DNA of 38,443 nt from a virus: positions 1 through 38,443 of IMG/VR virus record IMGVR_UViG_3300027833_000111. One strand, 5' to 3'. Of this stretch, positions 8,456 to 38,443 are shown piece after piece. The notes beneath the pieces were generated by a model, which saw only the letters and a program-made list of their open reading frames with translations, was not told the DNA's origin and did no database searches. Numbering within the stretch: the first letter of the stretch is position 1; each line of letters opens with the position of its first letter. The translations under genes and the position numbers were made by a program.

Positions 8456-8465
8456 GTATTTATTC
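8456..8465 (-). promoter_or_regulatory. T4-late-like promoter element overlapping the giant gene's stop codon
   Basis: Minus strand reads GAATAAATAC, identical to 3737-3746. The TAA stop of the giant gene (8462-8460) lies inside it. It is 16 bases upstream of the 200-aa gene's ATG, so a transcript would have a very short leader that still holds the AGGA ribosome site. Confidence 0.55.
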
Positions 8466-14400: not shown

Positions 14401-17400
14401 TGATCATCTAACGGAACACTTACTGCTATTTTATTTCCTTCTGGATTTAATACAACTGTATCTGCCCAGCGGTTCTTGTCTATCAAAATATTCGGTGTAG
14501 CAGCATTATCATCGTGATCTTGTAATTCAAAACTTGACTCAGGAGCATCAATTACTTGACTTAGTACATACTTCTTATTATCAAGTCTATAAATTGCTAA
14601 TTGCGTTTGGTAAGAACTATCCGATAATTCTAATTTAGTTGTTACTACTAATACTTGCGCATCATCACTTAAATCAAAATTTTCAGCAAACTGTGATATA
14701 TTTGTTGCAGGATCATATGATAGTTCATTATAATATGTATCTAGTGTTAGATTTGGTAACAATCCTAAATAATCAATCTTACCATTAACTACTTCCCAAG
14801 ACGTATTTAAACTAGACGGAATCTCTGAGCCTTTTGATATGTTTGTAGTTGCTTCATAAATTATATCAAGATAATTTACAATATCACCCATTCTATAGCT
14901 AATAGAATTATCAAATGTACCTCTAAAGTTTTCGTCTTTAGCTCTCTTCCAACTGATATTGGTCCAATATATAGTATCACTAATATTGTTTTGCGTAACC
15001 GGAACTACTTTACGTGCAATATAATAATTATCTTTCCATATTACAACATCACCAATTTCATAAGATGTACTAAGTTTGTGTAATCCTTTCAAAGAACTGC
15101 TAGAAGGTACGCCATGTTTATATATTTCAATAGCGCCCGGATTTTGTCTCCATTCTAAATTTGTATCTCTTGCAGAGCCTGTAGGTTTATTGGACACCAT
15201 TAAAGTATAATCGTTACCAGTTTGATTTATTTTAACTTGCGAACCAAATCTTTTATCTGCTTGTGCATATTCTGAAACTAATGTTAATTGATACTGATAA
15301 ACTCCGTTAAAGTCTTTCCTATAAATTGATACAGCACCTTGATTTAGCGATCCTGGTGTACCAGTTTTATCTGCCGGAATATTATAAATTTGAGTGTAAT
15401 CTTTGTTTGTAGTATACGGCGGATTAGCAGCTCTAGATATACCAGTAATGATATCTTCATTATAAAAATAGTATTCTTGATCAGTAATTGGAACAACATT
15501 ATCCCAAGTTAATGAATCTGAGAACGGAGTTTCAGTATCTACAACAATTAGTTTACCAATTAAATTTGTTCCTAGAACAATATCATTATTAATGTCTAAA
15601 ATTGTACCAATGTCTTGATCAGGATCTGTATTAGATCGTGACAATCTTCTAATTTCAAATTTACCAATATTAGTTAATTGTTCAAAAGATCCGCCAACTG
15701 TTATATCTAATCTATCAGTTGGTTCTTTTTCTTCAAATTGTGCTTGTGTTAGTACATTAACATACACTCGAACTTTATTAAAGTTTCTTTGATAAAACAT
15801 TACTTCAGCAGCACTTGTAATTGTACTAGTTCTAGCAAGTCCCCCTTGTCCATCTCTAGGAATCTGTACATCAACTAAAATATCACCAATTACTGGTTCA
15901 AATACGTTACCTTGGAAATCAAATTCAGTAAAATCAAAATCAATGTATCCGTCCCATATGTCTTGTACAACAATATCAGTACCTGTAATAAGACTAGCAG
16001 CGAAGCCAGTTTGAGCTATATCAAATTCTTTATTATCAAAATACTTAATATTAATTTTTGTTGGTGTAGCAGAATTTGGACCATTTTCTAAAAATCTAGG
16101 ATATATTATATTTGAATAATCTTTTGATGTACGAATTACATATCTACTACTTGGTATAGCAACTTCAATTCCTCCATTGTCGCCTGTATAAGATAAATGG
16201 TTTATAAAACTTACTTGATTTTTATTAGTAACGTATGCGCCGATATCGCTGATCGTATCTTGAATATTGCTATATGCATTTAGTAATTGTTGTTGCTCAA
16301 CATCTTCTCTTTTACGAATATCAGAGTATACTAATCCTCTACCAACATCATAATATTTGCTGTTGTTAGAATATGTAAACGTATTGCCCGAAATAACCTC
16401 TGCCGATTGTGGAGTTGGATCTTGACCTATTTCATATGTTTTAAACAGCCAGTATCCGGAAACACCTTCACTAGTATTATACGTATCTGCTTCTGAATAA
16501 AATCCTACAAAGTCATTTCTATTATTAAATAGTTCACCTAATATAGTAAACACACCATTAGTGTTTATTAGATAAACAACTGCACTATCTCTAAATGTAG
16601 ACACATAATATACTTCTGCAGAACCAGTGTCAGTTTGTACAATTTCGCCTTTAGTTGGCAATGTTACATAAGTTTCAATAAAGAAAATATGATCTATTTT
16701 TTGTTGTATAATATGTTCAGTGGATAAAAATGTACTGGATATTTCTGGTATAACGTTATCAAACGGAAGATATATATCTAGTGTTGGATACGCAAAGCTG
16801 CGTTTGTTCCAATATAAACTTACTCTATCACCAAGGATATCGTCTAAAGTTCCTGAAGTTCCGTTATACATATCCTTAGGAGCTTTTACTAAAAAGTGAT
16901 CTACAACATTGTTAGGCAATCCAGGATCGCCTGCGACTAATAATGTTAATGATGTTGAATCAGAATCTGATTGCTCAGATATATTAATATAAGAATCAAA
17001 ACTTGAAAACGATTCTGCTTCAATAGCAGGAAGAATTTCTCTATTTGCTTTCCATAAACTTTCTTTGTATTTTACAATTTGTCCTTTTGTATAATTTTGT
17101 TGAGAACTGAAATCTCCAGTAAATTTAGTTTTTACGTTACTTGCTTTAGGAATGCCTACTACTAAATATTCACCATCGGGCGAAACATCAATGCTTTCGC
17201 CAAAGTTACTATTGGCTGGATCATACAATGTAGCTGGAGAATCAATAACTATCCAATATGTTGAAATTTCAGTGTCATCAAACTGTGCTGAACTAGTGTG
17301 CGTTATAGAAGTAGTATAATAAGTTCTAGAACTATCAAGGTCATAAACTACGTTATCACCTTTATAGAATATAGTATTTGGTTTCCATGGCAGTATAGTA

Positions 17401-20400
17401 TCTGGTGGAAATATTTCTTGATCAATTGCTAATTCTGACGATTCATTAGTTCTTCTATAATAATTGATTTTACCGTTACCATTACTAGCTGAAGATACAA
17501 AGAAGTTTCTATTATCACTAGTAACTGACATGCTCTCTGAAAACTCTTGTAGTTCTCCGGTAAATATCTCGTTATTAACTATAGTTTGATTTCTTTTATA
17601 TACACTTTTATTTTCTAAAACTGTCCAATCATCATTATAATTTTCAATCCAAAATCTTTGTCCTTGATACAATTTATCTTGTGCTAATAAATTTGCTTCT
17701 TCGACTGTTGCTACACGTACCGAACGTAATTTAGTTAATAAAAAGTCTTTTCCTATAAACGAATCAGGAGTTGTGTCTGTAGATAGTCTAATGGTAATTT
17801 TATTAAGAATAACACTTTCAACAACATATAGTCCTTCTAGATTAAATTCTTCAGCAGCACGTATACCAATAATATCAAGCGGCTTTACTAAGCCACCTGC
17901 CCAACGATTTACTGTCAACTCTATCAAAGGATCTCCTGTAATATCAGATCTTTGATTTTTATTTTCTAATACAGTTACAGATGTTTCGAGACTAATGTGT
18001 TGGTACACATTCCATGGGTTTTCACCTAGCTCTGTTACCCAAATATAATCACCAAGGCCTAGTAAATTAACATTACCCAATGGTAATTCGTTACTAGAAC
18101 TAGCTACAAATGAGACATCTTCTTCTCTTACAAATCCGCCAGTCTTAATTACTTCATTTTTAACTTCTTTAGTTGGGAACGGTGCATGGTTGTAGTCTAA
18201 AGGCTTGTCATATACTTCGTGTTCTAAAATTCTATAATGTTTGTCAAAATTAGTTGCTGGTAAACTAGTAACTAATTCAATTGCTTGCGGTGATTCCTGA
18301 ACTTTACTTTCTTTAAGATTAAATTCAACCTGTTCAACATCGTTAGTTGCTCCAAAACGACCAACTTGTAATGCCCACTCTTCGTAAAACTCTAGTGTAT
18401 CTTTTCCAGCACTGCCTAATGCACTAAACATTTTTGATAATGCATTTTTTGTGCCTTTATCTTGTATAAATCCTTGATAAAACTTATATTGACTTACATC
18501 GTCAGGAATAATATTAGCAAGATACTGTCTTTTTTGAAATCCTGTAAAATGTTTTGCCATTTTTTGCAACTCGGGATCAAAACCTTGGGTATCTAAACTG
18601 TAAAAGTCAGTAAATTGATTTGTTCTATAATCAAAATTTGTAATTAATTCCGGTTCTGGTTTTTCATTAAGTCTAAACCATTTAGCAGTTTCAAAATCTG
18701 TTGTACCTGGAATATTTTCAGTTGCAACATAATAAAATTGTTTATATTTAACAAGACTACCAATTCCAAAATCTTTCCATTGAGCCCAATCTACAACTTT
18801 AGCATCGTCGTACACAAATCCTGGAATATTTAATCCACCAGACCAATCTGCTGCACGGTAGCCACTAACTTTAATACGCTCTTGTCTATATCCAGAACTA
18901 GGTTCAAATACAATGTCATTAAACACTGTCTTGTTATCAATTAATACTACATGTTCTCTTTGTACTAATGGTAGTGCAGCACTATATAATCCTTCTTCAG
19001 TGTTTACGGTTTCTATACCAAAACTATTTTTATCTCTCAATAGACTATTGAATTCGCTATTTAACGGTTCTCCGTTTGCTTGTAATATACTATAAGTGTA
19101 GAACGGATCGTTAATATCGTCTACAACAAAATATTCTTTACTAAAATTAAATTTATTAGCAGCTGGTGATATTGTTATAACTGTGCCTGTAGTCCAGCCT
19201 TGTGTTGTCCAGAATAAAAATTCTCTAGCACTTTGATCCCAATTATTAACTGTTCCGTCTAACTCAACAAAATTAAAATCAAAACCTAAATCATTTAATC
19301 TCTGACCGTATCCTAACAAAAAGTCAACTACATCTTGTGAGGTCTTAAGTGTTGATCCGTATGGTAATGAGTCAGTTATTGTTTGGTCAAAATTACGTTT
19401 AAATAATGCAGTTTTTCCGCCGACAATCGGTAATTCAGGAAGTTTTGCAAGATTGTCTGTACTAAATGAAGCAGCAGATGTAAATGTTTTTGTAACTCTA
19501 TAGTATATATTGTTATTTTCTATAATAGTATCTTTATAAAATATAGTAGACGAATTCCATTTTGAAGTTGTTTCGCTTATTCCTCCAACTGTTACTGGAA
19601 CTGTTTTCGAAGAAGTGATCGGTGCGTAATACTCAAAGAACGGATTTTGATTGTTATAACCTCTTACAACAAATCCGCTAGCTGTTTTTTCAATAATTAT
19701 ACCACTGTACACTGCTGACGCTTGTGGTGAACTCTTATTAAGAAATACTTGATAGTTTTCTTGCGGGATATAAATTCCGCCTTCGGATAAAAGTTGTTGT
19801 GGGCTACGACTATCAAGAATTAAATTTATTTTTTGTTTATCACTAAACCCGCCTAGTTTAAATCCTAACTGATTATTGATTGCTTTTAATTCATTTTGGT
19901 AATCTTGATAAACTGTTAGCACATTACTAGCAACTAGATTATAAATGTAATTTACAAATCCTGAAGTATTTACTCTAGTAGTAGCAGCAAAGGTATTAGG
20001 AAATTCTATATTATGAAGTGTTAAAAATTTGCCGGTTGTAGAATATACTTGCTGTCCGGCTAAGTTAGTTGTTATACGAGATACGTCAAATGCTTCTCCG
20101 ATTGTACTAGACGGCTTATTAAGCATTAAGCTCTTAACAATTGCAAAAGGATAGTTAGAACTTCTGCGCCATGCAGTTTCAACTGGTGCTTCGTCGCCAA
20201 AGCTAAAGTTTCCTGTACTTTGTCGTATAATAAACTGTTTTACATATCCACTTTCTTGAGGATGTTTTAATTTTCCTGCAGAATCAACTGGTATAAATCC
20301 TACTAAACCTGGTCTTGCATAATCTAAGGTATATCTAATATTGTTAGGTTCTGCTATCTTACCTTCTTGAATATCAGTCCAAAGTATTAAATTGTCCCTA

Positions 20401-23400
20401 GTATACGGTGCTGGACCGTATACTGTATTCCACCATAATGGTTTAATTTTAAATCCTTGTATTTCCCAAGGATGGCTATGTGGCCTATCAGTATCAAAGG
20501 CACGTTTATATACGCCTCGCCAAAAACCAGGAAGAGATTTACCAAATGGATTTACTGAAGATGAGTAATTAAACGTAAAAGGATTTAATCTATCATAAAA
20601 ATAATTATCAGTATAATCATTGTCTACATATGTTAACCACTGTGTAAAGTTAGATAGTAAACTACGGTCAACTTCTGTTTTTGTAAATTCGTTAGTTCTA
20701 AAATCTCCACCTACAAATTTATCAATATTAATAAGGTTATTATCATAATTTACTTTTATATTATTAAAGATTCGTTTTTCAATATCTAGTAATAGTTCAT
20801 CTCTAAAATCTAAGTATGCTCTAATATAACTACCATCATGTCCTCTAATAAAAGGAATACCTGTAGGATATGCATCATATTCTACATTATCAACAGTTCC
20901 AATTGAGCTACCGGTTGTAGGAATATAAAGTGTAATGTTTAGACCTTTAAACAAGTACGCATTTGATGTTCCTGTGCCGCCGCTAGCAGTATCGGCTGCA
21001 TTAGCTGCACTAATAGTGTTGTAAACCGGATAAAACCATCCTCTATTACCAGCATTAGTAAATCCAGATTCAACTTCTCCGTATATTTTATACGATTTAG
21101 ATTCTATCGGTTCAGCAGTTTGATACGTGTCGTCAATTGTAAGTTCAGGTGCAAACTTTGGATATATTCCTAATTTAGTAGGAGTTGGTGCAATAAACGT
21201 TCCGTCTGTACTTTCATATTCGTAAATGTCGATTATATCGTTTACTTGTTGATCTGAGTCAATAACTACATAACCATCTGCATCAAACGTGTAGTCTAAA
21301 TTATAAGACAATTGTTTAGAATTTAAATATACACTAACAGCATTAGACGATAGCTTATCTAAATCAAACGGCGCAGTTAATGCATAAGTTTTAATTCTAG
21401 AATCTAAAACAGTATATGTTATCTGATTTGATGGCCCGTGTGCTACCATGTCAGAAAAGTAAAACGGTTGTGTTTTAATTTTATCTTTATTAATTTCTTT
21501 TAAAATAAGGTCAACATGTTGTTTAGTTTCACCGTCAAATCCTAAAGATTCAGCAGTTTCTAAAAACACTCTTTTAAATTTAGAATATTCAGTGCTTGCA
21601 TAATCAAGAGACTTTGTTAAATTGTATTTTGTGTTTAACAAATGGTACAATGAAAGATTCAAAGGACTTTTGTGTTTAACAAATCTTTTACCAAATTTAT
21701 CTAGATTTCCTAAGTCACGTAAGTTACCTAAACCCGGAAATACTCCTTTAAAATTCGATAGTTCTCCAACCATACTATCAACATGATCAATAACTTCGCC
21801 TAAAGTAAATTCAGACATGTCTTGATTTAATGGATTTCTTTCTAAGTTAATAGGAAGTTCATAATAACCTTTACTGTTTTTACTAGATTTACTATATGCT
21901 TTAATAGTAACTACATCGTCAATATTAATATCATTATAAAATCTAACTATTGCAGATTCATTTATTCTATCAATTTCATAATTAGCTAATCGAAGCTGTA
22001 ATTTATTATTAACAAGTACAATAACTTGCAAATCATTTAAATTTCCTGCTTTATCAAAAACGTCAATTTCAAAATTATTAGTTATGTTATCAGTTGCGGT
22101 GTATTGTCTAACTACATATTGTTTACTTGCTACTGGGGTATTAGACCAACCATTAACATATGTAAACAAAGTTTTATTTTTATATTTTCTTAAATTTGCA
22201 GTATCTGTAGTAATATCAATAACAGTGTCATCGTTTTGTATACTGAATTTATCACTTAACAAATTAAATTCAAAAACAATATCTCCACTATTTTCTATTT
22301 TCTTATATGATAACGGAAATCCTAATTCAACATCATTATTACCGTCACCTTCTTTATACGAAAATATTTTTGTTCCTTTAAACGTAGTAGAATTAAATAC
22401 GTCTAAGTCCCCATATGCATTGCCATTTGGACAACATAGATCAAACAACGGAGGTTGATTAACTTTTGTTTTTTCTTGTGCGGATTTCCATTTATTATAA
22501 TAATAATGGAATGTTTTGCCGCCAAATTTATTACCTTGTTTAACAAAAACAGTTTCTAAATCTACAGGAATAGTATCTTCTGTTTCTACCAAACTGATTT
22601 GTCGAACATTGTTTATTGTACTAAATTTTACTTCGTATATTTTTCCGTTAACTCTGATATCAGTATCTGCTGCAAATAGTATTCTCATACCATTTGCTAA
22701 ATTAATACCATCTACACTATATCCTAACTCGCCTTCAATTGTAGAAAAGACATCTGTTGTGAAGAAATCAATTAGGTCAATATCAGTCTTTGCTTCAACT
22801 CCAAAATTAAATAATTTTAATCCTGCTTCAAATTCAATAATAGGACGTTTTGCTCTACCTGTTTCGTCAATGTCAATATCTAAATTATTATATTCATAAC
22901 TTTTAATTAATACATCTTTATGAAACCATTTGTTATAACGAGACCACGGATTTTTATCTATACTTGCTCGGTTAACTATTAAATAATCTTTATCTTGTGC
23001 AGATGCGCTTGCGTTTGCAAAAGGTAAATTATCGAACTGATCGCTATCAAACGGAATAAGTATGTTTTCACTATATGCTGCTGGAATAATTAAGTCTTTT
23101 TCGTTTATTAAAACAATTTTATCACCAACACCTTCGACATACCACTGATCCTGTGCATACGTTGTAGGCAAAACATTGCCTTGAAATTTTATTTTCATAC
23201 CATTTGAAAATATTACTCCGTTAGCACTAGTGTAATCTTTTTTACCTAAAATATCAGCAGCAACATCAAGTTTAGTATTTTCTTCAATATCATATAATTT
23301 TATATGACCGCTAGTGTCAATTGAATTTTTACTGATGTAGTAAAGATTATTAGGAGCATTTATAGGAATAGTAAACTCGATAATACCCTTTTCAATATAA

Positions 23401-24299
23401 GCAATTGCTACTTCTTCACCTTCTTCACCTATTTTACGGATGCCGTCAGGATATAATGTTGAAACATTATCATCTGCTTCAAATGACACACTTCCGCTTT
23501 GTGGTAATACTATAAATTCACCTACGTCATATGACGAGCCATTGCTATCATACAAGGTAGCATCAAATAATCCATTATCTCTTAGTCCTGCTGAACCAGC
23601 AGTTATAATAGAAGAGCCAGGAGTAAATGTTCTACTAATAGCAATTGCCATTGGGTGTCCGGGTGTATCAATTTCAAAACGATATGTTTGTCCACGATAT
23701 AATTTTAATGACGGATTTCTAGTAAGCCCGTCATTAAAAACATATGCTATATTATCGCCTTGATCTTCAAGAGTTACAGTGTATGTACTGATTACTGTTT
23801 GCGACTGTCCGCGCACATCAACACTTAGTGGACCATTTGGTTCCCAATAATATTCGCGGAAGTTTGTAAATTTATCCCAATCAATATTAGGGTTCCATGG
23901 ATAATAATCGCTACTATTAAGTCTGCTCTCGTTAGCTGTATTGGCGCCAAGAAATCCTAACATGCCAATATAATCATTATAATCTTTATAAAAAGTTACA
24001 TTATCTAAATCATCTTTAATAACAGCAGCTGGTTCTAATTGGTAATTTTCTCTGTTTGACGAAACATCACCTATATAGTTGTCACCAGTTTTATAAGCCT
24101 TTGCTGTTTTACGACCAACATATCCATTAATTTTTTCAGCTTGGCCAGGCTGTATTAACTGATCTATAGTTCCTTGTAAGAACTTTTTGTTTGCTTCAGT
24201 TCGAAAGAATTTTGGAATTAAATCGCTTGCAGATCTACTACTGTTATTGTTACCAGCACTCGGTAACGACTTGTCGTTTTGATTATTATTAGTTGCCAT
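8460..24299 (-). CDS. Giant 5279-aa baseplate-region structural protein (gp7 position)
   Basis: One uninterrupted frame of 15,840 bases, 41% of the window. Its ATG overlaps the gp6 stop (TAATG), implying coupled translation. Seen in order: a Ser/Asn-rich start, then a conserved-looking segment (YYPWNPNIDWDKF near 130-150); a cupredoxin-like domain (~198-335) lacking most copper ligands; several copies, between ~1580 and 3150, of a Y..GD.V.Y....Y.A pattern resembling CBM5/12; six FG-GAP-like blades between ~2366 and 3460; two G.GY..P repeats (~3870-3905 and 4238-4295); and six or more beta modules with (A/G)DG(S/T)T..F signatures from ~4340 to 5195. No signal peptide or transmembrane segment is evident. 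In T4 the gene after gp6 is gp7 (about 1030 aa), so position suggests a greatly enlarged peripheral wedge or adhesion protein. I recall large proteins at this locus in marine T4-like phages but cannot confirm sizes. Direct homology to gp7 is unproven. Confidence 0.9.
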   Translation of the reverse strand: MATNNNQNDKSLPSAGNNNSSRSASDLIPKFFRTEANKKFLQGTIDQLIQPGQAEKINGYVGRKTAKAYKTGDNYIGDVSSNRENYQLEPAAVIKDDLDNVTFYKDYNDYIGMLGFLGANTANESRLNSSDYYPWNPNIDWDKFTNFREYYWEPNGPLSVDVRGQSQTVISTYTVTLEDQGDNIAYVFNDGLTRNPSLKLYRGQTYRFEIDTPGHPMAIAISRTFTPGSSIITAGSAGLRDNGLFDATLYDSNGSSYDVGEFIVLPQSGSVSFEADDNVSTLYPDGIRKIGEEGEEVAIAYIEKGIIEFTIPINAPNNLYYISKNSIDTSGHIKLYDIEENTKLDVAADILGKKDYTSANGVIFSNGMKIKFQGNVLPTTYAQDQWYVEGVGDKIVLINEKDLIIPAAYSENILIPFDSDQFDNLPFANASASAQDKDYLIVNRASIDKNPWSRYNKWFHKDVLIKSYEYNNLDIDIDETGRAKRPIIEFEAGLKLFNFGVEAKTDIDLIDFFTTDVFSTIEGELGYSVDGINLANGMRILFAADTDIRVNGKIYEVKFSTINNVRQISLVETEDTIPVDLETVFVKQGNKFGGKTFHYYYNKWKSAQEKTKVNQPPLFDLCCPNGNAYGDLDVFNSTTFKGTKIFSYKEGDGNNDVELGFPLSYKKIENSGDIVFEFNLLSDKFSIQNDDTVIDITTDTANLRKYKNKTLFTYVNGWSNTPVASKQYVVRQYTATDNITNNFEIDVFDKAGNLNDLQVIVLVNNKLQLRLANYEIDRINESAIVRFYNDINIDDVVTIKAYSKSSKNSKGYYELPINLERNPLNQDMSEFTLGEVIDHVDSMVGELSNFKGVFPGLGNLRDLGNLDKFGKRFVKHKSPLNLSLYHLLNTKYNLTKSLDYASTEYSKFKRVFLETAESLGFDGETKQHVDLILKEINKDKIKTQPFYFSDMVAHGPSNQITYTVLDSRIKTYALTAPFDLDKLSSNAVSVYLNSKQLSYNLDYTFDADGYVVIDSDQQVNDIIDIYEYESTDGTFIAPTPTKLGIYPKFAPELTIDDTYQTAEPIESKSYKIYGEVESGFTNAGNRGWFYPVYNTISAANAADTASGGTGTSNAYLFKGLNITLYIPTTGSSIGTVDNVEYDAYPTGIPFIRGHDGSYIRAYLDFRDELLLDIEKRIFNNIKVNYDNNLINIDKFVGGDFRTNEFTKTEVDRSLLSNFTQWLTYVDNDYTDNYFYDRLNPFTFNYSSSVNPFGKSLPGFWRGVYKRAFDTDRPHSHPWEIQGFKIKPLWWNTVYGPAPYTRDNLILWTDIQEGKIAEPNNIRYTLDYARPGLVGFIPVDSAGKLKHPQESGYVKQFIIRQSTGNFSFGDEAPVETAWRRSSNYPFAIVKSLMLNKPSSTIGEAFDVSRITTNLAGQQVYSTTGKFLTLHNIEFPNTFAATTRVNTSGFVNYIYNLVASNVLTVYQDYQNELKAINNQLGFKLGGFSDKQKINLILDSRSPQQLLSEGGIYIPQENYQVFLNKSSPQASAVYSGIIIEKTASGFVVRGYNNQNPFFEYYAPITSSKTVPVTVGGISETTSKWNSSTIFYKDTIIENNNIYYRVTKTFTSAASFSTDNLAKLPELPIVGGKTALFKRNFDQTITDSLPYGSTLKTSQDVVDFLLGYGQRLNDLGFDFNFVELDGTVNNWDQSAREFLFWTTQGWTTGTVITISPAANKFNFSKEYFVVDDINDPFYTYSILQANGEPLNSEFNSLLRDKNSFGIETVNTEEGLYSAALPLVQREHVVLIDNKTVFNDIVFEPSSGYRQERIKVSGYRAADWSGGLNIPGFVYDDAKVVDWAQWKDFGIGSLVKYKQFYYVATENIPGTTDFETAKWFRLNEKPEPELITNFDYRTNQFTDFYSLDTQGFDPELQKMAKHFTGFQKRQYLANIIPDDVSQYKFYQGFIQDKGTKNALSKMFSALGSAGKDTLEFYEEWALQVGRFGATNDVEQVEFNLKESKVQESPQAIELVTSLPATNFDKHYRILEHEVYDKPLDYNHAPFPTKEVKNEVIKTGGFVREEDVSFVASSSNELPLGNVNLLGLGDYIWVTELGENPWNVYQHISLETSVTVLENKNQRSDITGDPLIELTVNRWAGGLVKPLDIIGIRAAEEFNLEGLYVVESVILNKITIRLSTDTTPDSFIGKDFLLTKLRSVRVATVEEANLLAQDKLYQGQRFWIENYNDDWTVLENKSVYKRNQTIVNNEIFTGELQEFSESMSVTSDNRNFFVSSASNGNGKINYYRRTNESSELAIDQEIFPPDTILPWKPNTIFYKGDNVVYDLDSSRTYYTTSITHTSSAQFDDTEISTYWIVIDSPATLYDPANSNFGESIDVSPDGEYLVVGIPKASNVKTKFTGDFSSQQNYTKGQIVKYKESLWKANREILPAIEAESFSSFDSYINISEQSDSDSTSLTLLVAGDPGLPNNVVDHFLVKAPKDMYNGTSGTLDDILGDRVSLYWNKRSFAYPTLDIYLPFDNVIPEISSTFLSTEHIIQQKIDHIFFIETYVTLPTKGEIVQTDTGSAEVYYVSTFRDSAVVYLINTNGVFTILGELFNNRNDFVGFYSEADTYNTSEGVSGYWLFKTYEIGQDPTPQSAEVISGNTFTYSNNSKYYDVGRGLVYSDIRKREDVEQQQLLNAYSNIQDTISDIGAYVTNKNQVSFINHLSYTGDNGGIEVAIPSSRYVIRTSKDYSNIIYPRFLENGPNSATPTKINIKYFDNKEFDIAQTGFAASLITGTDIVVQDIWDGYIDFDFTEFDFQGNVFEPVIGDILVDVQIPRDGQGGLARTSTITSAAEVMFYQRNFNKVRVYVNVLTQAQFEEKEPTDRLDITVGGSFEQLTNIGKFEIRRLSRSNTDPDQDIGTILDINNDIVLGTNLIGKLIVVDTETPFSDSLTWDNVVPITDQEYYFYNEDIITGISRAANPPYTTNKDYTQIYNIPADKTGTPGSLNQGAVSIYRKDFNGVYQYQLTLVSEYAQADKRFGSQVKINQTGNDYTLMVSNKPTGSARDTNLEWRQNPGAIEIYKHGVPSSSSLKGLHKLSTSYEIGDVVIWKDNYYIARKVVPVTQNNISDTIYWTNISWKRAKDENFRGTFDNSISYRMGDIVNYLDIIYEATTNISKGSEIPSSLNTSWEVVNGKIDYLGLLPNLTLDTYYNELSYDPATNISQFAENFDLSDDAQVLVVTTKLELSDSSYQTQLAIYRLDNKKYVLSQVIDAPESSFELQDHDDNAATPNILIDKNRWADTVVLNPEGNKIAVSVPLDDQISKDQGAVWIYNYNSTTEKFGTVDVVNSNTITTPNTVITSPNNEQIEKFGYSIAFGNEGLVISSQNGDQIIPTRFDTYTKLLSDQSYVLDTASDERAETTFDNKFTSFNNIKIDKGTIYVYENVQDTLIYSEQLLFKDAQIDFGKNLLINDNHIYTGIPNFASSDYKGAVLDYRKTKNKKSWNSLRYSVTPVDVSKIQGVFLYNKRTNQIVSYIDYIDPVQGKIAGVADQEITFKTPQDPASYNVGQLDDITVSPSTHWGKSHVGQIWWNINNARFSNVYQGSTTFQSNGWNTLLPGASIDIYEWVESDYLPSQWNQLADTDNGIALGISGIALYGDTKYSAKLSYDDISQTFDTKYYFWVENKLTIPVAKNRKINCANIRNLIQSPRENGYRYISFISKDKIVLNNFDNLITSDDLVLNIRYSTGPNNSQNEHAQYQLISDSLPTSKPNYDIERKWFDSLIGFDSNNRIVPDPKIPVAKRQGIQNRPRQGMFVNRVEALKQTIERVNSVLLNTLIVDEYNINSLLLKDELPTAISNLYDLKIDTFEELEFISTNKLTPAVLTPIVVNGRVIRVAITNPGRGYKIAPSYQFEGTGNGATLGITINNLGQIDNVEVLTQGNDYTDTTILNVRKFTVLVESDSTSFNKWSLYNWNVASNSWFRTSVQDYNVSNYWNYIDWYSTGYNQFTEVNYTVNNSYELSTIDDIVGNTVKINNVGTGGWLLLEKESNQNTEDYTINYKTIGRQNGSIQFNDSLYDYAKNTTGYDNNSFDSVFYDNNPVKELRIIFEALRDNIFIGDLELEYNQLFFATLRYILSEQPNVDWMFKTSFISATHKLGNLSQDTTFKYSNLSDFESYVNEVKPYSTKVRQFIDSYQSLDNTSSSVTDFDLAPYYNNITGTITPSVANIDSNVIVGADDNTTIYPRKHWLDNLGYKIVEVKISDLGSGYTFVPTVRFEGGGGIGATAKAVLAYGKITKIIVTNSGTGYVTAPLVIIEGPQNEISTLAKATAILGNGLVRNPHIRVKFDRLSGQYVYDNIAKQMLHTGTGDNTTFDLPYPMDFDNSTIQVLVDNIEQLRSKYTYTNFEDNTSTYTREKGRIVFAKPPKLNAVIEVKYQLPLSMLSAEDRILHSYYPNSEMYSKDLNQLMTGIDYGGVEVRSFDFQGVSGWDTKGWFIDQWDQFDNTYEDQVFTADGSTIAVQLTTPLESGTVYNLYKNNVRIDDPNFSLGTATNVNAITNSITGDGTTDIIYVQDLGISIVDGDIFVVRKSTSDGSVIPDPAGYDTALSGGDLLYTTASGTAAEDIITDGDGFISEAAMAGPEELVPGQIFDTLDIKVYTRDSDGQGKIDSQSYYIDTSVTTYDLNITPSNIDSIIVKINNTILSRESGNYTIDWKNSTVTINSNISSYVDGAILSIVTVSQAGQNILDYGEYNADGSTTSFETRVRFQTDLDMFVSVNGIRQTVAFNESEVTGNAVFTFDSAPTEGDLVYYALFDSTIQVNYSQMKKDRFAGTGSKVDFVLSSAPFYTVPTQHNLIVKVGNNILSPGYNIQYTIPATNQREYALETFQQPQGSLLTNDIKVFLNGEEIFTPVSWRFDIANSSIILNDNVGFEGDIVEIYVITDGQYTLTSPNTVTLNTAPGGFAIVEIFQFSNHDLLGIERINYDVVSRVTLQLENADYNTYNRLSVGEIKLRKPAVDAKYAWVVKNGELLTPDTDYVLTNNNTTVQLATTPEKYDLIDIVHFTANVSTSKFAYRQFKDILNRTHYKRLDASVTTLEEPLNYYDLRITVKDAGSLSEPNKGQNLPGVIFINGERIEYFVKEGNLLRQLRRGTLGTGVKDLHAAESKVFDQNISKTIPYIDNNIIQDITADGTTALFDVSSVTGSINELEVFVGGVRMRKNSISSFLPVFEQDSPEGDYETPADVTFNVQAQQIDLTQVPTEGTRVTIIKKQGKIWNEGINSLGESNNSIARFLRAGTSELPE
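8700..11290 (-). repeat. C-terminal array of beta modules in the giant protein
   Basis: At least six segments share a module start of the type x(D/G)G(S/T)(T/K)xxF followed ~20 residues later by a V.V.(G/N)N.I strand: around residues 4340 (GDNTTFDLPYP), 4483 (ADGSTIAVQL), 4646 (DTSVTTYDL), 4725 (ADGSTTSFET), 4805 (GTGSKVDFVL) and 5160 (ADGTTALFDV). Copies are highly diverged at DNA level. Likely small beta-sandwich modules forming a stalk; identity of the fold is inferred. Confidence 0.6.
11415..12700 (-). repeat. Pair of GxGY..P repeats in the giant protein
   Basis: Near residues 3870-3905 the chain reads ITNPGRGYKIAPSYQFEG followed by GNGATLGI; near 4238-4295 it reads LGSGYTFVPTVRFEGGGG, GATAKAVL, then NSGTGYVTAPLVIIEG. 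The shared pattern is G.GY...P...(F/I)EG..G.GA.A...G.I..I.V. These are protein repeats separated by about 330 residues of unrelated sequence. Confidence 0.6.
13910..17204 (-). repeat. FG-GAP/integrin-like propeller blades in the giant protein
   Basis: Six segments fit F(G/A)xS(I/V)xxSxDGxxLxVxxPxxxxxxGAVxIY: FGESIDVSPDGEYLVVGIPK (starting F2366), RFGSQVKINQTGNDYTLMV (F3018), FAENFDLSDDAQVLVV (F3204), a blade with VVLNPEGNKIAVSVP and GAVWIYNY (from R3277), FGYSIAFGNEGLVISS (F3349) and FGKNLLINDNHIYTGIP (F3443). The last four are spaced 70-95 residues apart, right for successive propeller blades; the first is detached. A calcium-binding DxDxDG loop is not clearly present. Confidence 0.6.
14848..19550 (-). 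repeat. CBM5/12-like short modules interspersed in the giant protein
   Basis: Recurrent pattern Y..G(D/S/Q).V.(Y/W)....Y.A followed by an aromatic some 15-20 residues on: FYKDTIIENNNIYYRVT (~1584), GIGSLVKYKQFYYVATE (~1845, followed by FETAKWFRL), FYKGDNVVYDLDSSRTYY (~2310), YTKGQIVKYKESLWKANRE (~2403), YEIGDVVIWKDNYYIAR (~3079) and YRMGDIVNYLDIIYEATT (~3133). The pattern resembles chitin/cellulose-binding CBM5/12 modules. Several copies adjoin the propeller blades. Carbohydrate binding is inferred. Confidence 0.5.
23295..23710 (-). other. Degenerate cupredoxin-like domain in the giant protein
   Basis: Residues ~198-220 read LYRGQTYRFEIDTPGHPM, matching the N-terminal strands of plastocyanin/cupredoxin-like domains with the first histidine ligand at H215. 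The usual closing motif (LYY.C..H..MGG.I) appears at 319-333 as LYYISKNSIDTSGHI, where the Cys, His and Met positions are Ser, Ser and Thr. A ~40-residue insertion lies between. The fold is inferred; metal binding is unlikely. Confidence 0.5.
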
Positions 24300-28288: not shown

Positions 28289-31200
28289 CTATTCTACGTT
28301 GTTGTCTGTGCCATCACTATTTTGTGGTCCAGGATTATTCGCTTCGTTATCTGTAACTTCTGGATCATTTAAGTCATTGCCTAATTCTTCATCAACAATC
28401 GGAGTTTCCGTTTCATTAAAGTTTGAAGGACCTTTTGGTATTTTTCCGTTTCTGTCAAATCTAAATGAACCGCCTTCACTAGTATGAGCACTGAAGTGCA
28501 TAGCATCATCAAGTGATCGCCATGCTCCGCCCCAACCAAGACCGTGTTTGTTTGCAATTTGTAAAGTATTTGATGGCATATCTGTCATCGGAGCATTTGC
28601 TGGACGAGGTTTGTAAAATCCATTAGGAAAAGTATTAAACACAGGGTTAGGCCAGTTAAGGTCAATAGCAGCACCACTAGCATGACAACTCCAACTACTG
28701 CTACCTACTGCCTGACGTTTGGCATATCCGCCAAGTGCTTTAATTTCATAAACTTGTTCAAATTCATCTAAGAAGGCTTGGAAATTAGCAGCAAATACTT
28801 CTGCAACTTGAGTACTTAATCCTGCTTTTCTAGCATAAATTGTAACTAATTTCCCTTCAGGACCAGATGAGTCAAAAGTTGCATCACTTTGTCCAGCGTT
28901 ATTTGGACCAGTACTGCCAGAGTCGTTATTTACAGGACCGTCGCCGGTGCCACCATCAAAGTCGTCACTAGAGCCGCCGCTGCCAACAATAGTTCTACTA
29001 CTCGTATTAGCTGCTTTATTTTTATTAAAGATATCTGGCGATTCTACACGATCTGAAGGTGTTAGTGTTCCAGGAACTTCTCTATCAGTTTCTTCTTTCT
29101 TAAATGCTGCTGGATTCATATTTTCATGATGCATGTACGGTTCGTGCGTAGGTGCTCTAGTTAATATACTGTCATAAGGTACAGGCTGCAATGCTCCAGG
29201 GAACATATAAGGTAATGTAATAGTAGTTAACGGTTCTATAGGTGTTGCATCAGTTGCATCAATTGTCTTCGTTGCCGATGTTGCTGTAAGTGCAATAATT
29301 GGAATATTAGCTGCGTCGATATTCGAAGATGCAGCAGATGCTGCTGGTGCAGCAGGTCCATTAAGGTTAATATCGCCACCGCGTATTATTGTATTTGCGG
29401 CACCAATACTGAAATCACCGCCTGCGGTATTTTTAAATGCTGCTCCAGACAAATTATTAATTTCTGATGCTGCGTCTACAAATATTGACGCATCTGACTT
29501 TGTGTTAATATTTGCGGTTGCTATATTATTAATTGTTGCAGCGGATATAACAGAATAATCATCTGCAGACTGATGTCGAATATTAGCATCAGATATTAGA
29601 TGCACTTCTCCAGTTACACTTGCATGACTGTGTCCTTCTACTACAGTTTCCATATTTCCTTTAACGAAAATTTTAAGGTCGCCGCCACAGCCCGAAGAAT
29701 GTATATTAATTCCTGATCCTTTTATATAATGTGTGCCTGCGACTAATTGTACCGTGCCGGTACCGGTGCCTGGCTTATTTGCCATTATAAAACATGTGCC
29801 AATTTCGTTATCTGGAGAACCGTAGGCTGTAAAATCTGTAGTACCCACAAAAACAATTACATACTTGACTCCGTTGCGTATGTCTGGATCTGTTATAGGA
29901 AGTACTTTTGTTGAACCTGACAAATCATTTATATCACTTCCTGATTCTCGGAACCAAGATTGTTCACTCTTTTCATGTACCGAATTATCTGCTTTCATAT
30001 AGTAACTTTTTTTAGAATGCAGATTATAGTCATCACCAACTGTAGTTTTCATACCTTGTGTAATTGCTGTATCCGAAGTGCCTTTTACTGTTAATTTATA
30101 ATCTTTTCCTGCATACATTTTTGTATCAAATGCACTTTCAATATGTACACGACCACTTGCCTTATCGTCAAATACTGCTTGACCATCACTCCAACGTGCA
30201 GACGCTTTCATATTAATATTTCGACCTGCTTCAATATTAAAATCTCTTTCAGCTGTAAAATTAATATCGTTTTCTGTCATTACACTAATGCTATCTTGTG
30301 CATGTATATCAATTTTACCGTCACTTGTTAATTCTATCCAAGCTGTGCCACGAGAGTTAGAAATATAAATTAAATCTTCACTATTATGTAAAAGTATTTG
30401 ATGCCCAGTACGTGTCCTAAATCGCATAAGCTCGTTATGAGGGATAGTTTCATCGCCACCTTCTTCGCCATTTAGTTTGTTAACATAAAATGGTGGGCCG
30501 TCTTCTGCATGAGTTTTTCTAATAAATTTATCATTACCGTCGTCCATAACAACCGAGCTGCCGCCTAGTCTGTTATACGGAACATTTGCTTTTTTTCCAG
30601 CAGCACCAATATCAACTCTAGGAGCGCCTGCTCTCTTATCTAATGGCCCAGGGGTGTTAATACCAAAAGCAGAACTAGGTATTTCACGACGAGCACTTGT
30701 AGTCGTTGTTCCTCTATGTTCATCATAAAGTAGTCCTTGTACTTCCAATATATTTGTAAAATCTTTATTATATGGTTTATTAAAAAGAGTTGGATCAACT
30801 AAACTACCGTCTTCAATTTTTTTATTATACTCGCCAACTGGTAGTTTTGCTCCTTTTAGATTCTGAGGAGTAACTTCTGTTGTACGTTGAGTACTTGCTC
30901 TACCATCTGGAACCATAAAGTTCATATAGTCATCTGGTATACATCCAATCCAATAACCAAAGTTTGCATTACCTTCGGCAAATATTACAAGAACTCTAGA
31001 TCCTACATCAGGGGGTACCATCCACATACCGTAACTCTTTTGTGTATTCTCGTATCCGTCATTTGCTGTAAGTCCAGCAGTTGGTGTTACGCCGTAAAAC
31101 GGTGACAAATAACGCACATTCATTAACTGTCCGCTGCGTTCAGGTGTGCCGCCGGCACCAGTGTACCGGATTATTTCAACTTCTAATCCGCCCATATATT

Positions 31201-35736: not shown

Positions 35737-36036
35737 TTAAATTCCCATCATTGATTGAAGATTAGAACCTTGTGGTAGATAAATTTTAGTTCCAGAAATA
35801 AAATCAAATACCGGATCTTTAAGAACATCAGGATTGCGTTGAGCAAATATCCACCAAAGCTCTTTTTTACCGTATAGATCGTTTGCTAATAAGTCAGGCC
35901 TATAAGTGTATGCAGGAATTATTTCATATAATATGTCATTTCCTGAAACCGGAACTGGTCTAGGAACAAAGATATCTAAATATCCAGCAGTATTAATAGG
36001 TGTTTTGCTGTAAGGGCCATAAGTTTTACTAGACAT
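35737..36036 (-). CDS. gp53: Baseplate wedge protein gp53
   Basis: 99 aa, about half of T4 gp53 (196 aa). Residues 35-90 hold the conserved LysM-like core: YEIIPAYTYRPDLLANDLYG, KELWWIFAQRNPDVL, then DPVFDFISGTKIYLP. Gp53 clamps neighbouring wedges together in the inner baseplate with gp6 and gp25. The ATG overlaps the gp48 TAA by one base (TAATG), and the next gene starts 3 bases after its stop. This appears to be a compact form consisting of little more than the core domain. Confidence 0.9.
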   Translation of the reverse strand: MSSKTYGPYSKTPINTAGYLDIFVPRPVPVSGNDILYEIIPAYTYRPDLLANDLYGKKELWWIFAQRNPDVLKDPVFDFISGTKIYLPQGSNLQSMMGI

Positions 36037-37001
36037 TATACAAATCCTTCAGGTTTACCAACAAATCCGCCTTTTGAAAAATCAGTTAAACTAAATTTAG
36101 CTTGTGATCTACGGGCGTACTGTGGAGTAGCTGTAACTGTTATTGTTGCCATAGATGGTACAAAATTTTCTTTACCATCTACTACACATCTAATGTAATC
36201 AACGTCATTAGGTAAGTCAGTTGTAAAGTTAGTTATTACAACCGGAATATCATTTAAAACATGTTGTCCATATCCGCTCAATCTACAAACTACAGGCGGC
36301 AATCCTGTAGTTGCGTCATCGCCGCCATAGAACATTTTAGTTGCAGACCTTAAGAAATGTAATGCTGCTATAAAATATTGTCCATCGTCTGTTGATTCAT
36401 TAACAAATTCACCTGTGATAGTAAAAGCATCCACTTGACTGTTCTCATAAGAATTATAAGGAAAGTTTGTATGTACAGGTTGTACTTGAGAATAATTTGC
36501 ACTATTACTTACTAACACAGTTGGAGTAAAAGGAAACACCATTGAGTTATTAGTTCCTACTAATGGAGCAAGAACTACGCTATCTTGCGAAAGTATAGTT
36601 GGTACCGAGATTCGTACACGCCAATCAGCATCATTTGCAGCAGTTATATTACTAGAAATTATCGCCTTTGATATTGTTCGAGTTGGCGGAGCAGCATTGT
36701 AACCAACTTGTTGTGCAGAATTTCCTATCATTCTAAGTGCTGCGCCAGCTTGTGCTAAATTGCCTCCTCTACTAATAATACTATCAACTTGACCTATATT
36801 ATTTTTCATCGATCCTGCAATATTAGAAATTTGTCCAAATGTATTTGAAAACCCACCAGACGTATCAAAGTTTTTTATTAAACTAGTTGTTCTGTTTAAT
36901 CCTGATGTAAAATTATTAATTGTGCTAGAAACTGATGACACATTACTAAAGGCATTATTAATTTTACTCGACAGTTGATTAAAGGCGCTAAAAATACTCA
37001 T
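36036..37001 (-). CDS. gp48: Baseplate tail-tube cap protein gp48
   Basis: 321 aa, against 364 for T4 gp48. The first ~90 residues are Ser/Asn-rich and probably helical. The folded domain from ~110 contains DADWRVRISVP, MVFPFTPTVLVSNSANYS, HTNFPYNSYENSQVDAFTI, FLRSATKMFYGGDD, CRLSGYGQHVLNDIPVVI and FTTDLPNDVDYI, the pattern annotated as gp48 in marine T4-like phages. Gp48 (with gp54) caps the baseplate and starts tail-tube growth; gp54, a related tube-initiator, is a weaker alternative identity. It is the first gene of the minus-strand block: a late-like promoter lies 20 bases upstream and AGGAG 11 bases upstream of the ATG. Confidence 0.85.
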   Translation of the reverse strand: MSIFSAFNQLSSKINNAFSNVSSVSSTINNFTSGLNRTTSLIKNFDTSGGFSNTFGQISNIAGSMKNNIGQVDSIISRGGNLAQAGAALRMIGNSAQQVGYNAAPPTRTISKAIISSNITAANDADWRVRISVPTILSQDSVVLAPLVGTNNSMVFPFTPTVLVSNSANYSQVQPVHTNFPYNSYENSQVDAFTITGEFVNESTDDGQYFIAALHFLRSATKMFYGGDDATTGLPPVVCRLSGYGQHVLNDIPVVITNFTTDLPNDVDYIRCVVDGKENFVPSMATITVTATPQYARRSQAKFSLTDFSKGGFVGKPEGFV

Positions 37002-37021
37002 TTTATTATGATCTCCTACTA

Positions 37022-37029
37022 GTATTTAG
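37022..37029 (-). promoter_or_regulatory. T4-late-like promoter for the gp48-to-fibre block
   Basis: Minus strand CTAAATAC (within AACTAAATACTAG), 20 bases from the gp48 ATG, with AGGAG between. It abuts, without a single spare base, the TTGACA box of the divergent gp55 promoter (37030). It is probably recognised by polymerase carrying gp55. Confidence 0.6.
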
Positions 37030-37058
37030 TTGACAAAATTAAGTAAGTAGTTTATAAT
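37030..37058 (+). promoter_or_regulatory. Consensus sigma70 promoter for gp55
   Basis: TTGACA at 37030-37035 and TATAAT at 37053-37058, both perfect consensus, with the optimal 17-base spacer. Expected start of transcription is near 37065. An AGGAG ribosome site (37072-37076) follows, 6 bases before the ATG at 37083. This is an early-type promoter read by unmodified host polymerase. Confidence 0.9.
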
Positions 37059-37082
37059 ATAAGTTAACTATAGGAGAAACTG

Positions 37083-37931
37083 ATGCGCCCCAAGAATTAT
37101 CTAAACAATAAAGATATATTAAAAGAAATACACAAATCAAAAAATAAGTTTAACAGTTATTTAGAACCAGAGTTTGGTCAGTACGACATTATCCTTCCAA
37201 GTGTAGACAAAATTAATCGCTTAACAGTTGCTGAAGCAAAACGCAACAAGGCAAAAAAGATGTCATCTGCTGAATACGAGCGCCGTAAAGGACTTGGTGA
37301 GAAGGTCAAGCAAGCCGAATGTGAAACACTTGCATCTGAAATTACAAAAGAAGAATTAATCTTCCGTGTAATGACATTTGATCACATTCCAGAAGAGCCT
37401 GGACGTAAAAAGAACCCAAAAACAGTTGCAGATACGAGAGTCAAACTTCCTTTTCCGCCGTTTAAGCATTACAAGTACGACGAAGATGGCGAAATTGTAC
37501 TAGTAGGCAAAAGTCACTGGGTAGGTGGCATGGACAACGGACATTTTAGTCACCAACACGGTAAAGCAACCGATAAGCTTGCTATGATGTGGTTAAAACT
37601 TGTTGATCGTTATGCAACAAGAGGCAATGTACGTGGTTACACATACAATGACGAGATGAAAGGACAAGCAATACTACAGCTGGCGCAGATTGGTTTGCAG
37701 TTTGATGAGTCTAAGTCAGATAATCCGTTTGCATACTACACAGCCGCAGTTACTAACAGTTTTGTTCGTGTAATTAATATAGAGAAGCGCAATCAAAACA
37801 TTAGAGACGACATTTTAGAAATGAATGACTTAAACCCAAGTTATACAAGACAAAATCAAGGCGAATGGGAAGCAAGTGTCAAAAGAAATGAAGATGCTGC
37901 ACCAACTGCATACACAAATACCAAAAAATAG
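37083..37931 (+). CDS. gp55: Late-transcription sigma factor gp55
   Basis: 282 aa; T4 gp55 is 185 aa. Residues 4-20 (KNYLNNKDILKEIHKSK) match the start of T4 gp55. Residues ~160-240 match its sigma-region-2-like core: LVDRYATRGNVRGYTYNDEM, KGQAILQLAQ, FDESKSDNPFAYYTAAVTN, then FVRVINIEKRNQNI. Between them lie some 130 extra residues, rich in charged residues and including GKSHWVGGMDNGHFSHQHG. Gp55 directs host core polymerase to late promoters. The T4 protein ends in a clamp-binding SLDFLYE segment; here the C-terminus reads NEDAAPTAYTNTKK and shows no such motif. It is expressed from its own consensus promoter, divergent from the structural genes it should activate. Confidence 0.93.
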   Translation: MRPKNYLNNKDILKEIHKSKNKFNSYLEPEFGQYDIILPSVDKINRLTVAEAKRNKAKKMSSAEYERRKGLGEKVKQAECETLASEITKEELIFRVMTFDHIPEEPGRKKNPKTVADTRVKLPFPPFKHYKYDEDGEIVLVGKSHWVGGMDNGHFSHQHGKATDKLAMMWLKLVDRYATRGNVRGYTYNDEMKGQAILQLAQIGLQFDESKSDNPFAYYTAAVTNSFVRVINIEKRNQNIRDDILEMNDLNPSYTRQNQGEWEASVKRNEDAAPTAYTNTKK

Positions 37932-37932
37932 G

Positions 37933-37961
37933 TTGACAGGTGTTAATAATTACTATATACT
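37933..37961 (+). promoter_or_regulatory. Sigma70-type promoter for gp47
   Basis: TTGACA at 37933-37938, one base after the gp55 stop codon, and TATACT at 37956-37961, with a 17-base spacer. Expected transcription start is near 37968, giving a leader of about 20 bases that contains GGAGGA (37977-37982). It lets gp47 be transcribed independently of gp55. Confidence 0.8.
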
Positions 37962-37988: not shown

Positions 37989-38443
37989 TTGTTTAAGAAA
38001 GCTGCGGTGTTTACGGACATCCATTTTGGTTTAAAGGGCAATAGTCGTGTACATAACGAAGATTGCGAAGAATTTATTGATTGGTACATAGAACAAGCAC
38101 AAGCTGCCGGTTGCGAGACTGGTATCTTCTGTGGAGACTGGCATCATAACAGAAATAGTCTTAATCTTACTACTATGGATGCTACAATTAGAAGCATGGA
38201 AAAGCTAGGTAAAGCATTTGAGAAGTTTTACTTCTTTGATGGCAACCACGACTTGTATTATAAAGACAAACGTGACGTTAACAGTACTGCTTTTGCAAAA
38301 CACATTCCAGGTATTACGTTTATAGACGAAATCTTCATTGAAGATGATGTTGCACTAGTACCGTGGCTTGTTGGCGATGAGTGGAAGAAGATGAAAGACA
38401 TCGAAACAAAGTATTTGTTTGGTCATTTTGAACTTCCTAGCTT
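37989..38443 (+). CDS. gp47: Recombination nuclease subunit gp47 (SbcD/Mre11-like), 5' part
   Basis: 151 codons are in the window; the frame runs off the right edge. The start is TTG at 37989, chosen because GGAGGA lies 6 bases upstream and no in-frame ATG occurs until residue 63, after two catalytic motifs. Calcineurin-like phosphoesterase motifs are in order: TDIHFG (D10, H12), CGDWHHNR (D50), DGNHD (N86, H87) and FGHFE (H146), spaced as in T4 gp47. Gp47 is the nuclease partner of the gp46 ATPase (SbcCD/Mre11-Rad50 type), which resects DNA ends for recombination-dependent replication and degrades host DNA. Gene 46 is expected just beyond the window. Confidence 0.95.
   Translation, partial: MFKKAAVFTDIHFGLKGNSRVHNEDCEEFIDWYIEQAQAAGCETGIFCGDWHHNRNSLNLTTMDATIRSMEKLGKAFEKFYFFDGNHDLYYKDKRDVNSTAFAKHIPGITFIDEIFIEDDVALVPWLVGDEWKKMKDIETKYLFGHFELPS

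Follow-up and report, generated by a model that had tools for sequence, protein, structure and literature searches.

The well-studied early-to-late switches of phages mostly rely on dedicated repressors or activators. In phi29, the divergent early and late promoters A2b/A2c-A3 are located at the early-late switch, as at the junction described here, but the phi29 switch utilizes the proteins p4 and p6 with one host sigma factor, unlike the two-sigma junction of the present phage. In the bidirectional promoters of E. coli, one RNA polymerase (RNAP) binding event precludes the other and strong one-way activation represses the opposite direction; the basal activity is too low for competition, and exclusion matters when one direction is strongly active (PMC12825309). 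The overlapping divergent promoters Pr/Pc of pLS20 lie at a regulator gene, as here, and form a genetic switch (PMC4207663). In T4, late transcription depends on gp55, gp33, and gp45, and the clamp lengthens the late footprint by 13 bp upstream (PMC2988020). In the passage on the jumbo relative CBB in PMC5259590, an independent report, ATAAATA precedes structural genes, and homologs of gp33 and gp45 are given as undetected. The sliding-clamp profile PF02916 matched 0 of 15 records in our set, and the control genome(s) gave no match either.

The window analysed here, the whole stretch of 38,443 nucleotides of viral DNA (IMG/VR record IMGVR_UViG_3300027833_000111), appears to be a piece of a marine jumbo-phage genome of the T4-like type. 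It also contains a single ORF of 5279 aa amid the tail/baseplate genes (8460-24299, minus strand). The gene of a late sigma factor, gp55, stands back to back with a late operon, and the intergenic gap of 81 bp holds both promoters. The features of this region are as follows:

35737-36036, minus strand: gp53-like wedge subunit of the baseplate, encoded second in the late operon (phrog_7145, E 1.4e-23; PF11246, E 6e-4)
36036-37001, minus strand: virion structural (baseplate) protein, encoded by the leading gene of the divergent late operon (phrog_12050, E 3.2e-43)
37013-37017, minus strand: Shine-Dalgarno AGGAG of the baseplate gene, from the sequence
37022-37029: late box of the first-pass annotation, CTAAATAC on the minus strand, equal to GTATTTAG on the plus strand
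37023-37030, minus strand: late-promoter box ACTAAATA in the T4 register (TATAAATA), with zero changes on the gp55 tree
37030-37035, plus strand: sigma70 -35 element TTGACA of gp55, its first base common to the late box
37036-37052, plus strand: 17-bp spacer of the gp55 early promoter, with conserved TTA (37039-37041) and GTA (37047-37049)
37053-37058, plus strand: early -10 element TATAAT of gp55, with a predicted start at ~37065
37072-37076, plus strand: Shine-Dalgarno AGGAG of gp55, from the sequence
37083-37931, plus strand: gp55-family late-transcription sigma factor, 282 aa (phrog_12791, E 1.6e-75; phrog_234, E 1.2e-21)
37933-37961, plus strand: sigma70 promoter of gp47, TTGACA-17-TATACT, separate and used as the internal control
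37989-38441, plus strand, running past the window end: gp47/SbcD-like recombination nuclease (phrog_100, E 1.7e-34)

The first-pass annotation had recognized here a late promoter abutting the early promoter of the late sigma factor itself, and its gene and promoter assignments are borne out. The two profile matches place the 282-aa protein in the gp55 late sigma family, and its closest cultured counterparts are those of PA5oct-type phages (46% identity), Phosso (45%), Atu_ph07 (40%), and the RaK2/121Q group (~38%). The PF11246 match of the wedge protein falls just short of the cut-off of that profile. The early promoter of gp55 is a perfect sigma70 consensus, TTGACA-17-TATAAT (37030-37058, plus strand), with 24 bp from the -10 element to the ATG, and it is the single exact TTGACA-N15-19-TATAAT in the window (0.16 expected; present in 14 of 100 shuffles). 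On the late side, CTAAATAC is found once in the window, and the bare TATTTAG shows no enrichment there (7 found vs 15 expected), so the case for the late box rests on position and conservation. The annotation had the box touching the -35 element. On the plus strand GTATTTAG does adjoin TTGACA, but in the T4 register the box ACTAAATA overlaps the -35 element by one base, 37030, which is common to both; base 37029 is also joint between the late box and the early promoter. The late start, formerly placed near 37010-37017, is corrected to a predicted ~37017-37019 on the minus strand by analogy with T4 late promoters, and thus the predicted early and late starts are ~48 bp apart. As in T4-type late promoters, which carry a TATAAATA-like box at a fixed short distance, TAAATA is located 27 nt before the baseplate gene.

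For the statistics of the late motif, we called genes in 1.08 Mb of sequence, made up of the window and nine related contigs. Over these 10 sequences, coding-strand TAAATA is concentrated at 25-30 nt before gene starts, with 60 occurrences vs 2.4 expected (25-fold) and 4 on the antisense strand. In the noncoding DNA upstream of genes, enrichment is highest for the words ATAAATA (81 vs 0.54 expected) and TAAATAC (60 vs 1.3). Within the window, the minus-strand genes starting at 37001, 27781, 8439, and 3708 carry TAAATA 23-35 nt upstream. Position and enrichment together support ATAAATAC as the late motif of the clade, and TAAATA is a genuine late motif there. Mirrored boxes (e.g. ATTTATCGTAAGCGATAAATAC) also occur at back-to-back late-late junctions, as in G001 (29738-29802), G003 (38578-38711), G004 (103095-103134), and G007 (84928-84977).

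The first-pass annotation had proposed the conservation of the overlap in related phages as a check, and the overlap is kept in Atu_ph07 as well as across the close clade. We gathered 116 gp55 loci by gp55 protein similarity, two of which are truncated, leaving 114 testable loci. The 12-mer TATTTAGTTGAC stands at the gp55 junction with zero spacing in 113 of the 114, representing 67 distinct cores, and the sigma70 promoter is conserved in the same proportion, with the TTGAC of its -35 element invariant across all 67 cores. Exactly one copy of TATTTAGTTGAC is present in each of 20 of 20 related contigs, and in a scan of the collection for the full composite, 102 of the 120 matches listed lay immediately before gp55. 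In a tree built from 88 gp55 proteins, 12 of the 12 columns of TATTTAGTTGAC show zero changes, while the 10 upstream flanking columns show 6-23 each, and the leaders changed their length at least 29 times on the late side and 38 times on the early side. In the control, the gp47 sigma70 promoter ~0.9 kb off in the same genomes, TTGAC is likewise invariant and most of the -10 element is kept; the number of changes is 6-22 for each of the seven bases upstream and 11-27 per column for the spacer. These counts indicate that the back-to-back early/late arrangement is real and strongly conserved over a large set of marine jumbo phages of the T4-like type.

Several other observations belong to this comparison. 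TATTTAG as a general part of early promoters was rejected, with one composite copy per contig and a gp47 control that lacks it. The TATTTAG|TTGACA contact is also found in other phage contigs (L199, L111, L176, L197, and L140) at divergent junctions between DNA polymerase and NUDIX genes, an endonuclease and an unknown gene, and a glycosyltransferase and a tail fibre; some of the scan matches away from gp55 are of this kind. A BLAST search of the 42-bp junction against cultured phages gave mostly weak AT-rich matches.

The joint base bears the marks of both promoters. At -37, the gp47 promoters prefer G (62 of 84), and the late boxes prefer A on their own strand at the joint base (71%), followed by C (13%); the joint base of the gp55 junction is always C/G, a compromise and the joint optimum for both promoters. 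In the exceptional junction L263 (2869-3000), the old early -35 and -10 elements have decayed, a new early promoter is located 57 bp downstream, and the joint base is T, yielding the consensus late ATAAATA with the TATTTA box kept. As one natural test, this locus speaks for the reading with two promoters.

Outside the close clade, the gene pair is widely retained. In PA5oct, 121Q, and RaK2, the gp55 gene is divergent from a baseplate or structural operon, and in Phosso and Atu_ph07 its divergent neighbour is a nucleotidyltransferase gene heading such a run, while in the cyanophage S-MbCM6 it is within a same-direction run and not divergent. Between the late box and the -35 element there are 0 bp in Atu_ph07 (where the contact is present, with no clear -10 element at the usual place), ~5 bp in the RaK2/121Q/CBB-like phages, 22 bp in PA5oct, and ~73 bp in Phosso. 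Among PA5oct-like metagenomic loci, the distance is exactly 36 bp in 26 of 41, with both leaders variable; a semi-conserved ATAAAC..TTTTAT stretch is seen between the late box and the -35 element in the PA5oct-like loci L279-L323. From this distribution, the divergent pair is ancient and widespread, with each clade keeping its own spacing. The exact contact is lineage-specific and not universal.

On this basis, we propose that the junction is a fused divergent early/late promoter with mutually exclusive initiation, in which gp55-programmed RNAP wins late in infection and lowers the initiation of gp55, and we give this reading a probability of roughly 60%. Host sigma70-RNAP would read rightward into gp55, followed by gp47 with its own promoter, and gp55-RNAP would read leftward from the T4-type late box overlapping the -35 element into the baseplate operon. 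The two promoters overlap in their core elements, and judging from standard RNAP footprints each initiation complex would cover the core element of the other, so that only one of them could be assembled at any moment. At the early stage of infection, sigma70-RNAP would make gp55 and hold the baseplate promoter closed; as gp55-RNAP builds up, it would take the site, start the baseplate operon, and reduce gp55 initiation. Since the predicted starts are ~48 bp apart and ordinary footprints would reach across both, initiation by the two polymerases is likely to be mutually exclusive. The first-pass annotation spoke of a collision, which is the wrong word; divergent polymerases move apart, hence the process would be a competition for binding. 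The strong activity under which exclusion operates in E. coli could be reached here by the consensus early promoter together with a late promoter under activation. The function as a timing switch, including its direction, strength, and timing, is plausible but unproven, and it is equally possible that the early sigma70-RNAP blocks the baseplate promoter as that gp55 shuts off its own promoter one way.

Natural variants are at odds with the strict form of the regulatory claim, in which contact is universal and gp55 purely shuts itself off. Eight loci (L007, L008, L009, L010, L012, L013, L016, and L017), whose gp55 proteins are 91-93% identical to that of the window, carry a second sigma70 promoter of consensus type, with GGTTGACA-17-TATAAT or a close match to it, downstream of the overlap and at most 100 bp upstream of gp55, with one origin on the tree. 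In addition, 20 of 73 distinct junctions have a TAAATA late box directed toward gp55, and in 18 of these it is fused to the -10 element (5.8 expected in shuffled leaders, with a maximum of 13); the fused form TATAATAAATAC is found in L041, L050, L055, L058, L061, L068, L236, L248, and others. With such sense late boxes, gp55-RNAP may transcribe its own gene too, and together with the second sigma70 promoter they count against pure negative feedback. Moreover, because the contact is not universal (~5, 36, and ~73 bp), the gene pair does not depend on strict exclusion, and both complexes might bind together at the 36 bp of the PA5oct-like phages and the ~73 bp of Phosso. The broader proposal, that the late sigma factor silences the early promoter of its own gene by directing polymerase to the late promoter fused with it, a repressor-free timer conserved across T4-like jumbo phages with the spacing tuned by clade (contact, ~5 or 36 bp), is doubtful, and we offer it tentatively.

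In a rival account, which we consider rather unlikely, two ordinary promoters are tightly packed in the 81-bp gap without regulation, each kept for itself, differently timed, and seldom competing. The genome is gene-dense, other clades tolerate 36-73 bp, at the basal level there is little competition in E. coli (PMC12825309), and the late-late divergent junctions (TATTTATCG..CGATAAATA) are packed as tightly as the gp55 junction, so that close packing is by itself no sign of a switch. Simple packing does not readily account for a spacing that is fixed by clade even when it is not minimal, as at the 36 bp of the PA5oct-like loci, nor for the box-to-35 distance of the close clade, which is constant except where the early promoter was replaced. 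The constancy in the close clade was rejected as a stand-alone proof of coupling: no deletion is permitted and an insertion would fit at no more than one to two inter-base sites, and therefore the conserved contact is weak evidence, with ~1.5-3 insertions expected (an estimate from the leader-length changes) and 0 seen. The spacing of the PA5oct-like clade is better evidence of coupling.

In another account, which we regard as unlikely, a phage or host protein binds the spacer element ATTAASTAYGTATAT and picks which promoter fires. Along the spacer, the columns 37039-37041 change 0, 1, and 0 times and the columns 37047-37049 change 6, 1, and 3 times, a conservation missing at the gp47 promoter, whereas the columns 37042-37046 change 13-22 times. 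Several columns of the spacer are free to vary. The element survives in L263 despite the decayed -35 and -10 elements, and its first part is present in Atu_ph07 without a matching -10 element. TTAASTRCG occurs 15 times in noncoding DNA vs 1.1 expected (14-fold), and the ATTAASTAYGTATAT word is also located before the late box of another late gene, but it is not general to late promoters. The spacer conservation, which was unexpected, hints at a possible third regulatory element or factor. A conserved element RTTAANTRCGYAYAT was noted at 37036-37052 in the window, in homologous spacers, and in several contigs upstream of a gene of 284-290 aa; it is over-represented in noncoding DNA and occurs in promoter regions. 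Two further candidates were rejected: the spacer element as a general upstream element of late promoters, with GTASTTAA at -18 in only 2 of 147 other late promoters, and a palindromic operator TAGTTGA-N5-TTAACTA over the -35 element, whose right arm is unconserved across lineages.

It is very improbable that TATTTAG is an UP-like upstream part of the gp55 early promoter with no late promoter present, since, although it is AT-rich, lies at -43 to -37, and is invariant alongside the -35 element, it is missing from the other sigma70 promoters in these genomes, many further genes have TAAATA on the same strand and equally far upstream, the TATTTA box stayed in L263 when the early promoter moved off, and the box is apart from the -35 element in RaK2-like and PA5oct-like phages.

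If the coupling by mutually exclusive initiation is true, the shared-base junction of the late sigma promoter and the late operon would be a minimal switch made of promoter geometry alone. Without coupling, the junction would remain a well-conserved case of dense phages sharing promoter bases. In either case, the natural variants (contact, ~5, 36, and 73 bp, the tandem second promoter, and the sense late boxes) provide a ready series for studying promoter competition. We found no description of this promoter overlap in the open-access literature, and the junction is a variant of the already known overlapping divergent promoters. Compared with T4, it shares a gp55-family sigma factor and a TATAAATA-type late box (PMC2988020). 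CBB has the same ATAAATA late motif, with gp55 just downstream of a TGAAACG-type promoter; the passage of PMC5259590 on its promoter classes leaves a divergent late-box overlap undescribed, and the spacing in the CBB clade is ~5 bp. The switch of pLS20 utilizes the repressor/activator RcoLS20 and DNA looping (PMC4207663), whereas no such protein is known at the jumbo-phage junction. In the bidirectional promoters of E. coli, the divergent initiation sites share DNA, as here, and RNAP binds a pseudo-symmetrical sequence in two orientations (Warman et al., PMC12825309); in contrast, the jumbo-phage junction involves two different sigma factors, one of which is encoded under the opposing promoter.
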